Below the pieces are notes generated by a model. That model was not told where the DNA came from, searched no databases, and saw only the letters and a list, made by a program, of their open reading frames with translations. Source: Nitrosopumilus sp. Nsub (GTDB taxonomy: Archaea; Thermoproteota; Nitrososphaeria; Nitrososphaerales; Nitrosopumilaceae). Taken from it: 64,000 bases of DNA. Made by a program: the position numbers and the translations under genes. The stretch is from contig NZ_LQMW01000009.1 in the NCBI RefSeq assembly GCF_001541925.1, forward strand, positions 1 through 64,000. Direction: 5' to 3'. This document shows positions 49,280 through 52,799 of the stretch, in pieces; the stretch's first letter is position 1; the number at the start of each line of letters is the position of its first letter.

Positions 49280-50605
49280 TTATCCCAAACCCATTTTTCT
49301 TAAAGTGCCCTGCATTTGACGACCTTTAGAAGCTTTCATCAAATTCTTTGAATTTTTATAATTTTTCATTAATTCTTTTACTTCACTTTCAGGCCATCCA
49401 GAACCTCTAGCAATCCTTTTGATTCTTGAAGAATTGAGTAAATCAGGGTCTGCTTTTTCATCTTTATTCATACTTTGAATAATGTATCTCCATTTGGATA
49501 CTCTGTCTTCCATTTGATCAACTTGATCTTCTTTTACCATTCCAGACATTCCCGGCATACTGTCAAGAAGTCCTTTTAGTGAACCAACTTTTGTTACTTC
49601 TTCTAATTGATAAAAGAAATCATCCATGTTCATTTTTCCACTGGAAATACGTTTCATTCTAACATCATCACCTTCATTTTCTAATCTTTTTGCTAAATCT
49701 AATACAGCCTGAATATCACCCATCCCAAGTAATCTGCCAACAAATCTAGTCGGAGAAAATTTTTCTAAATCATCAATTCTTTCACCAGTACCAATGTACA
49801 TAATTTGAGCACCAGTTGCTGCAGATGCAGCTAATGCGCCGCCACCTTTTGCAGAACTATCTAATTTTGAAATTATAACACCACCAACAGGGATAGTTTT
49901 ATGAAATGCTTCAGCTTGATTGAAACATTGTTGACCAATTGTTCCATCAATTACAAGTAGAGCTAAATCAGGATCTGCAACTTTATTGATTCTACTCATC
50001 TCTTCAAGTAAATCTTGTTCTTCTTTGTGACGACCAGCAGTATCAATAATTATTACATCAAGAGGTTGTCCTGCAAAATGTTTTAATCCATTTTGGACAA
50101 TATTTGGAGAATCTTTATTATTTTCTTCACCATAAACTTCGACATTTGATTTTTCACACATCATTTTTAATTGAACCAATGCACCTGGTCGATAAGTATC
50201 AGCACCAACAACACCAACCTTATGACCTTGTCCAGTCAAAAATTTTGCAAGTTTTGATGCAACAGTAGTTTTACCACTTCCCTGAATTCCCAATAAAATA
50301 ATTTTATTTTGTTTTCCAGGTTTAAGTTCGAAATCAGACTCGTTACCCAATAATTTTGATAATTCATCATATAGAATTTTCACAATATGATCTTTACGAG
50401 ATAATCCAGGAGGAGGAGTTTCATTTAACGAGCGTTCTTCTAACCTTTTAGTAATTTCAAGTACTAGTCGAACATTGACATCAGAGGTCAATAAAGCCCG
50501 TTGAACATCTTTACAAAGATCTTTAATTAATTCCTCATCAATGCCTGAAGATTTAACAATTTTTTTAATTGCATCTCCTAAGCTACTTTTTAATCCATCA
50601 AGCAT
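49280..50605 (-). CDS. srp54: Signal recognition particle GTPase SRP54
   Basis: The 441-residue SRP54 targets nascent membrane and secreted proteins. N domain at about 1-88, G domain with the P-loop GIQGSGKTT at 106-114, DTAGR and SKLDSSAKGGGALA (G4 region), then a methionine-rich M domain (about 310-441; DSMPGMSGMV) for RNA and signal binding. It overlaps the Dph6-like gene by eight bases, so the pair is likely cotranscribed. SRP19 lies at 58118. Confidence 0.95.
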   Translation of the reverse strand: MLDGLKSSLGDAIKKIVKSSGIDEELIKDLCKDVQRALLTSDVNVRLVLEITKRLEERSLNETPPPGLSRKDHIVKILYDELSKLLGNESDFELKPGKQNKIILLGIQGSGKTTVASKLAKFLTGQGHKVGVVGADTYRPGALVQLKMMCEKSNVEVYGEENNKDSPNIVQNGLKHFAGQPLDVIIIDTAGRHKEEQDLLEEMSRINKVADPDLALLVIDGTIGQQCFNQAEAFHKTIPVGGVIISKLDSSAKGGGALAASAATGAQIMYIGTGERIDDLEKFSPTRFVGRLLGMGDIQAVLDLAKRLENEGDDVRMKRISSGKMNMDDFFYQLEEVTKVGSLKGLLDSMPGMSGMVKEDQVDQMEDRVSKWRYIIQSMNKDEKADPDLLNSSRIKRIARGSGWPESEVKELMKNYKNSKNLMKASKGRQMQGTLRKMGLG

Positions 50606-51287
50606 TGCAATTTAACTCCGCATCCACTATTTCAAACCTTCCTCTATAACCATCCCAATTTTTTGTGAATTTATTAATTTTAATAGAATTAGAAAATAAA
50701 GGACAATCTATAACAAAGGTTTCAGCCTCTCCACCTTCAAAATTCAAATTAAATCCAAATTTGTCAGATAAAATTTCTAATTTTTTCATATCAGATTTTG
50801 AAATTAATTTTCCTAGCCATTGATCGTCTAAACCATCAGATGAAACAGTAGTCATAATAAAATGAAAATTGGATTCCATCAAATCATTCATGTATTTTTT
50901 TGGTTCACTTTCCCATAAGGGGGAAACAGAAATCAAATTTAATTTCCCACACAAACTTTCAAATTTTTCTTTTTGAAATTTACTTTTTATTCCACCATGA
51001 ACCAATCCCTCGATTTTAAATTCATCTATAGCATTTTTCAATAATTTTTCTAACACAATTAATTCATCATTTGTTTCATCTGAAGAAGAAGAGATAGTTA
51101 ATTGAGGAATTTTCAAGGATTTAGATTGTAATTTTGTCCATTTTAAATTTGGGTGATGTAAAAGATGACTTTCATCAGATTTTGCAAAAACACTCAAGAG
51201 ACACACAATCTCATGTCCTTGTTTTTTAGCAAGATGAATTGCATAAGTACTATCTTTCCCACCAGAAAAAAGACAAGCTAATTTCAT
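50598..51287 (-). CDS. Diphthine-ammonia ligase-like ATP pyrophosphatase
   Basis: The roughly 229-residue protein resembles Dph6, which performs the last step of diphthamide synthesis on EF-2. The PP-loop start KLACLFSGGKDSTYAIHLA binds ATP, and FEGGEAETFVIDCPLF is the family's second signature. An in-frame ATG one codon earlier exists at 51290. Its end overlaps srp54. The neighbouring aIF5A gene is, by chance or design, also a factor with a modified residue. Confidence 0.85.
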   Translation of the reverse strand: MKLACLFSGGKDSTYAIHLAKKQGHEIVCLLSVFAKSDESHLLHHPNLKWTKLQSKSLKIPQLTISSSSDETNDELIVLEKLLKNAIDEFKIEGLVHGGIKSKFQKEKFESLCGKLNLISVSPLWESEPKKYMNDLMESNFHFIMTTVSSDGLDDQWLGKLISKSDMKKLEILSDKFGFNLNFEGGEAETFVIDCPLFSNSIKINKFTKNWDGYRGRFEIVDAELNCNA

Positions 51288-51334
51288 CAATTAATAAAAA
51301 TGAGACTCTAATAAAATTCTAAAATTTTTGATTG

Positions 51335-51399
51335 AGATGCCTCAATACTCATAATCGTCATCACAAATCAGACGGCTTTTCCGATAATCATCAGCATCT
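51335..51399 (-). ncRNA. Box C/D guide RNA with predicted tRNA-Met C34 target
   Basis: The minus strand holds a full archaeal box C/D layout. A terminal stem AGATGC (51394-51399) pairs with GCATCT (51335-51340). Box C TGATGA is at 51388-51393, guide 51372-51387, D' box CTGA 51368-51371, a four-base spacer, C' box TGATGA 51358-51363, guide CGATTATGAGTA 51346-51357, then D box TTGA 51342-51345 (variant of CTGA). The second guide pairs with ACTCATAATCG, an elongator tRNA-Met anticodon arm, placing C34 opposite the fifth guide base from box D. Confidence 0.8.
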
Positions 51400-51476
51400 G
51401 TAATAGTGTTACAATTATAGAATTTTAGTGCTATGATTGAAATCAAATAATGAAAATATGTTGCAGAATTCTAAGT

Positions 51477-51890
51477 TTAACTATTTTTAATACTCATGAT
51501 TTTTGTATTATCCATTACAACCCAATATTCAACATTTTGTCCGTTTTCCAATTTTCCTTGAACAGAGTCGTCAATCATTGCAATGTCAATAGTTTCAAAG
51601 GATTCATTATCCATAACTTGTACAGTATCACCATTTATTGAGATTATTTGACCAACTTTCTTGTTAATCATTGGAACATGGATTTGCATACTTACAGGTC
51701 CAACATGAGGTCTATTTTTGCCATCAAAAATTCCCTGACCAACGATTCTAGCTTTTGCTGCACCGTGTTTTCCAGGTTTTGAAGTATCGTACTCAATAAT
51801 TCTACATGGTTCCCCACTAGGTTGATCAGAGTGAGGTAGTAGAATGTATGATCCAATTTTCAATGAACCCAAATCAGATGGTTTACTCAT
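51477..51890 (-). CDS. eif5a: Translation initiation factor aIF5A
   Basis: The 137-residue factor stimulates peptide bond formation at prolines. The hypusination loop is SKPGKHGAAKARIV with the modified lysine at Lys41. The C-terminal half is the OB-fold domain. The start MSKPSDLGSLKIGSYIL is typical. The box C/D RNA lies 78 bases downstream on the same strand and could be processed from its 3' transcript. Confidence 0.95.
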   Translation of the reverse strand: MSKPSDLGSLKIGSYILLPHSDQPSGEPCRIIEYDTSKPGKHGAAKARIVGQGIFDGKNRPHVGPVSMQIHVPMINKKVGQIISINGDTVQVMDNESFETIDIAMIDDSVQGKLENGQNVEYWVVMDNTKIMSIKNS

Positions 51891-52627: not shown

Positions 52628-52751
52628 CCCGTGGTAGCTCAGCCTGGTAGAGCTTCCGGCTGTAGTTGTTGGCTTAAGATGGCTGACCGAAAAACAGCAT
52701 ATCAGGCATACAGAAACCGGGTTGTCGCATGTTCAATTCATGCCCGCGGGA
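52628..52751 (+). tRNA. tRNA-Tyr (anticodon GTA) with intron
   Basis: The gene folds as a tRNA: acceptor CCCGTGG/CCGCGGG, D arm GCTC/GAGC, anticodon stem TCCGG/CCGGG, T arm GCATG-TTCAATT-CATGC and discriminator A at 52751. The C1-G72 pair is characteristic of archaeal tRNA-Tyr. Anticodon GTA is at 52662-52664, and a 50-base intron (52666-52715) sits after position 37, the canonical site. Bases CCA follow at 52752-52754, so the 3' end is encoded. Confidence 0.95.
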
Positions 52752-52799
52752 CCACAAAATTTTTACAAAAAAAGAGATCCACATTAAACAAAATATTGG

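Follow-up and report, generated by a model that had tools for sequence, protein, structure and literature searches.

A box C/D sRNA gene of Nitrosopumilus sp. Nsub with predicted targets in the anticodon of elongator tRNA-Met and in helix 90 of 23S rRNA

The analyzed stretch of DNA (the window, 64 kb) carries on its minus strand a box C/D guide sRNA gene of 65 nt (AGATGCTGATGATTATCGGAAAAGCCGTCTGATTTGTGATGACGATTATGAGTATTGAGGCATCT, from 51399 to 51335), flanked by the genes for eIF5A and a diphthamide synthase, which both lie on the same strand. Judged from its sequence, the locus belongs to a known kind of gene and has two predicted targets. The best explanation, to which we assign a probability of about 0.9, is a dual-guide archaeal C/D sRNA directed at C34 of elongator tRNA-Met and at the equivalent of Escherichia coli C2510 in 23S rRNA. 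The RNA would fold into a terminal k-turn formed by boxes C and D and an internal k-loop formed by C′ and D′, and L7Ae, Nop5 and fibrillarin would bind to this fold. The D arm would form 10 bp with the anticodon arm of elongator tRNA-Met, leading to 2′-O-methylation of the wobble C34, and the D′ arm would form 10 bp with helix 90, leading to 2′-O-methylation of the C2510 equivalent next to the peptidyl transferase centre. What we infer from the DNA is transcription, assembly of the sRNP, the two methylations and any effect on decoding or on the structure of the ribosome.

Table 1 Features of the predicted sRNA gene and its surroundings (window coordinates)
Feature	Position	Strand	Remarks
Box C/D dual-guide sRNA gene	51335..51399	-	Sequence, conservation, architecture
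eIF5A gene, upstream neighbour, synteny anchor	51477..51890	-	Pfam IF5A-like_N and eIF-5a; neighbour conserved
Dph6-like diphthamide synthase gene, downstream neighbour, synteny anchor	50598..51290	-	Pfam Diphthami_syn_2; neighbour conserved
CTAAAAT, TATA-like, candidate own promoter	51422..51428	-	Some 29 to 23 bases upstream of the sRNA 5′ end
Terminal stem, 5′ strand AGATGCT, pairs with 51335-51341	51393..51399	-	Compensatory changes at all 7 pairs
G, first base of the three-base k-turn bulge	51392	-	
Box C ATGATTA (RUGAUGA, one deviation)	51385..51391	-	Register set by homologs
D′ guide positions 2-11, GGAAAAGCCG	51373..51382	-	10/10 Watson-Crick pairs with 23S rRNA
Box D′ CTGA	51368..51371	-	
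Box C′ GTGATGA	51358..51364	-	
D guide positions 2-11, GATTATGAGT	51347..51356	-	10/10 Watson-Crick pairs with elongator tRNA-Met
Box D TTGA	51342..51345	-	
Terminal stem, 3′ strand GGCATCT	51335..51341	-	Covariation

The C/D architecture pattern (core of box C, D′, C′ and NTGA) had a single match in the window, at the sRNA locus, against a mean of 0.0 matches over 60 first-order Markov windows. Several features by which archaeal C/D sRNAs are recognized are present: the ordered boxes C, D′, C′ and D are enclosed by a terminal stem, each of the two arms is complementary to a stable RNA so that the target residue lies opposite guide position 5, and the host genome (assembly of 1.38 Mb in 26 contigs) encodes fibrillarin and Nop5. 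The genes for the latter two are adjacent (L242; Nop 8.2e-68, fibrillarin 4.3e-90) and this apparent operon counts in favour of a guide sRNA. The Rfam scan of the window at curated thresholds returned no C/D family, two tRNAs being its sole matches. The window also contains a tRNA-Tyr(GUA) gene with a 50-nt intron (52628-52754, plus strand), which the default tRNA scan of the window did not report and which apparent ORFs overlap.

The initial annotation had proposed a textbook box C/D guide RNA at this site. Its nature as such a guide, encoded on the minus strand, has been borne out by conservation and by covariation of the terminal stem, and the epithet suits boxes D′ and C′, which are perfect; C (AUGAUUA) and D (UUGA) deviate from the consensus by one base each. 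Among 23 divergent homologs compensatory changes occur at seven of seven stem pairs, 93.1% of the stem cells are paired as against 66.7% in shuffles, and all slid registers drop to 33-47% pairing. Since this covarying 7-bp stem fixes the register, box C must be AUGAUUA (51391-51385), one base after the stem, and the homologs place it three bases downstream of CTGATGA, the box C that had been implied with no coordinates. The CTGATGA register is not kept: one homolog (L105) reads GGGCGCC-GAUGAUGA and two others (L073 and L109) have A at the base where that register requires G. With box C as AUGAUUA the spacers are 13 nt (D′) and 12 nt (D), and box D, rightly reported as TTGA and not CTGA, leaves a U-U mismatch instead of the G-U pair described. 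Similarly, the four-base spacer between D′ and C′ holds if C′ is read as TGATGA and shrinks to TTT with the full GTGATGA. In one homolog (L106 of G209) an extra base lies between the D guide and box D, and the predicted target register shifts by one.

The host genome contains three CAU tRNAs, i.e. the intron-containing elongator (L034 101-216, G000:C10:119264-119379) and two others (L018 and L019), which from their stems we take to be initiator-like and tRNA-Ile-like, respectively. Positions 2-11 of the D guide pair perfectly with A31-C40 of elongator tRNA-Met with C34 opposite position 5, so the assignment of the D guide to this residue stands, and the elongator is the only one of the three CAU tRNAs whose anticodon arm is fully complementary to the guide. 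The initiator-like and tRNA-Ile-like CAU tRNAs have the CUCAUAA loop in common with the elongator and differ in the 31-39 pair; the pairing energy is -11.0 kcal/mol for the elongator versus -7.9 kcal/mol for these two. The anticodon arm in this genome reads CCAGA-CUCAUAA-UCUGG, in place of the CGA/TCG stem assumed before. Archaea are known to form Cm34 in elongator tRNA-Met by means of C/D RNPs (PMC2584109, PMC6601510).

Position 12 of the D guide is unpaired with the tRNA and position 1 pairs only with the last base of the 40-nt intron in pre-tRNA-Met. The 11-base fit claimed initially is therefore found in the pre-tRNA, with 11 pairs that differ from those proposed, and is reduced to 10 pairs in the mature molecule. 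ARAGORN places the intron at 34/35. The tRNA-Met of a relative (G261) has no intron and reads GCCAGACTCATAATCTGGA, which implies a 30/31 junction in the host tRNA-Met, and because of this and of inspection we set the splice site at 30/31; MFE folding of pre-tRNA-Met gave no bulge-helix-bulge motif. The eleventh pair would be expected if the substrate of the D arm were the intron-containing pre-tRNA-Met, methylated before splicing, a variant of the dual-guide reading. However, in relatives guide position 1 does not track the last base of the intron, and genomes with an intron-less tRNA-Met (G303, G293, G289 and G261) also keep the guide, which argues that pairing with the intron is not under selection, and we regard this variant as rather unlikely.

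For the D′ guide the initial annotation could name no target. The 12-mer used there has mismatches with 23S rRNA at its ends, and positions 2-11 alone are perfect, forming 10 of 10 Watson-Crick pairs with CGGCUUUUCC in helix 90 (E. coli 2507-2516; pairing energy -15.5 kcal/mol), where position 5 selects the equivalent of E. coli C2510. The identity of this residue follows from its position, counted on the sequence, 42 nt upstream of the U in the A-loop that corresponds to E. coli U2552; the same spacing separates Cm4456 from Um4498 in human and Cm2880 from Um2922 in Arabidopsis (PMC11542601). Humans and plants are methylated at the C2510 site (PMC9941101, PMC11542601), and one published table gives this site for human, plants and an alga, and not for yeast or Pyrococcus (PMC11542601). 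Guided methylation in archaea has a known hotspot in helices 90-93 (PMC4644070).

Guide and target also change together. U2512 of 23S rRNA pairs with A in the guide in seven family-f1 genomes with 23S data; in 11 genomes from outside f1 whose guide matches, C2512 pairs with G. The A form of the guide on a C2512 target would lose ~4 kcal/mol. This co-change is compensatory and, being one evolutionary switch, it counts once. In four f1 relatives (G244, G019, G041 and G249) position 2 of the D′ guide is A opposite an unchanged C2507, leaving 9 bp. The chance that a 10-mer of the window perfectly complements an rRNA or tRNA of the host is 0.0074, and two perfect fits, each in the same register from its own box and each on a residue with known methylation in other organisms, are difficult to ascribe to chance.

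DNA matches to the sRNA gene were obtained at E≤1 in 243 of 250 family genomes, most of them below 1e-10. A covariance model found it at E≤0.01 in 293 of the 400 class genomes sampled; partial assemblies and strict filters explain some of the remaining 107, which are not proof of true absence. A second model, based on the 23 divergent homologs, had matches beyond the class, in some other lineages of the phylum, the best in family f25 (with E values as low as 1e-13). Where flanking sequence was inspected, most homologs had eIF5A, Dph6 or both within 1.5 kb, which marks them as orthologs and not chance C/D RNAs. Among named genomes, those with an exact match to the core motif are almost all labelled Nitrosopumilus or marine group I. 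The sequences read in detail comprised 30 genus-level copies, 30 divergent genomes and 20 further regions. An alignment of 30 copies shows no change at positions 2-11 of either guide and little or none in D′, C′ and the cores of C and D, and the flanks vary; among the homologs positions 1 and 12 of both guides vary and positions 2-11 are mostly retained.

Most of the Nitrososphaeria examined conserve both the D guide and its tRNA arm: GATTATGAGT in the guide and ACUCAUAAUC in the arm co-occur in most of the relatives examined, and A31, U39 and C40 of tRNA-Met are retained where the D guide is retained. A D arm directed at elongator tRNA-Met has been seen only in Nitrososphaeria. Almost every syntenic homolog retains the D′ arm, also beyond the class, where it forms 9 of 10 pairs, and this arm persists in syntenic orthologs with a replaced D arm (G331, G337, G298, G305, G410 and genomes of family f25). 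Such replacements would be compatible with a guide that has a single target, 23S C2510, and whose D-arm match to the tRNA is incidental or weakly used, but positions 2-11 are the very part of the D arm that is retained over many genera, and their match is perfect, centred on C34 and in favour of the elongator tRNA; we consider a single-target guide highly improbable. Within the dual-guide reading, the D′ arm appears to be the older, constant part, the D arm having been replaced in several lineages.

Some of the replaced arms have candidate targets. The D arm of G420 is a predicted Leu(CAA) guide, and a tRNA-Leu-like sequence with ACTCAAGATC is present there (L187), called by neither ARAGORN nor cmscan. 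In G337 (L122) the altered D guide pairs with 23S CCUCGAUGU (9 pairs, one of them G-U), a stretch that directly adjoins the D′ target, so that both arms would sit side by side. The altered D guide of G331 was considered as a tRNA guide (CUG anticodon loop) and rejected, its only matches being the sRNA itself and a locus devoid of tRNA. For the D guides of G298 and G305, the 23S stretches examined yielded no target. Two Leu(CAA) guides (L130 and L131) were rejected as homologs, having neither eIF5A or Dph6 neighbours nor a D′ guide, and more likely belong to a separate Leu(CAA) guide family.

The position of the gene, 77 nt after the eIF5A stop codon and in relatives almost touching it, in conserved synteny, might also be expected of a 3′-end or processing element of the eIF5A mRNA that is not an independent sRNA gene. 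Against this, each arm fits a stable RNA in the register of a guide, the sequence of the D′ arm changes with that of its target, and two homologs with no immediate eIF5A neighbour (L055 and L105) still have the sRNA and the upstream CTAAAAT; guide function is, moreover, compatible with co-transcription with eIF5A. We hold the mRNA-element explanation to be extremely improbable. The CTAAAAT motif is found at about the same spacing in 29 of 30 relatives (the exception is L066) and is present in 40 of 41 named genomes. Because this spacing is nearly fixed whether the motif is part of the eIF5A reading frame or lies in the spacer, CTAAAAT suggests that the sRNA has its own promoter. In relatives the C-terminal codons of eIF5A would seem to harbour a promoter element.

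Among known systems, Pyrococcus sR49 and the Haloferax guide (Rfam sR-tMet, RF02163) are also C/D sRNAs that guide, or are predicted to guide, Cm34, the elongator tRNA-Met of the Haloferax guide being intron-containing (PMC2584109; experimental work cited in PMC6601510). The RF02163 model gave 13.5 bits with the sRNA, below its threshold of 50, i.e. no sequence-family relation was detected. We know of no rRNA target of the eukaryotic SNORD97/SCARNA97. These likewise guide Cm34, in human elongator tRNA-Met (PMC6601510). The second guide of tRNA-targeting sRNAs has been described in a 2021 review as having no target (PMC7994747); unlike in those sRNAs, the second arm here has a predicted target in 23S rRNA. 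The rRNA residue selected by the D′ arm is equivalent to that of SNORD49A/B (Rfam RF00277), the guides of human 28S Cm4456 (PMC9941101). The SNORD49 model aligns weakly over the same stretch (13.9 bits, below the cut-off of 37), and the D′ arm would work like SNORD49 in selecting the C4456 equivalent, a likeness in target and not a demonstrated common origin. Humans have separate RNAs for the two sites, whereas a single sRNA would serve both here. In Pyrococcus the wobble bases of tRNA-Leu(CAA), Leu(UAA), Met and Trp are served by a set of four sRNAs (PMC7994747), compared with at least two apparent wobble-base guides (Met and Leu(CAA)) in the host genome. The second C/D-like sRNA of this genome (L287 258-313, G000:C1:137757-137812) has a D guide, GATCTTGAGT, that fits the wobble C34 of tRNA-Leu(CAA) (ACTCAAGATC in L039).

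In the open-access literature, to which the search was confined with subscription papers outside its scope, no description of C/D guides in ammonia-oxidising archaea was found. As a class of object the sRNA is ordinary; its dual targeting, its deep conservation and a site shared with eukaryotes raise its interest moderately. It joins predicted tRNA and rRNA targets, against the generalisation of the 2021 review (PMC7994747), and it places in archaea a predicted guide for 23S C2510, the site that is listed for human, plants and an alga. We tentatively put forward, at somewhat less than even chances, that a single sRNP connects the decoding site with the catalytic centre: a C2510 guide of ancient origin would have remained close to eIF5A across the class and in other lineages of the phylum, and its other arm would have turned into a guide for wobble C34 in Nitrososphaeria and acquired new targets in some lineages, e.g. 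tRNA-Leu(CAA) in G420. If this is true, the sRNA would combine one fixed arm with one evolvable arm, and guided methylation of C2510 would be older than eukaryotes.
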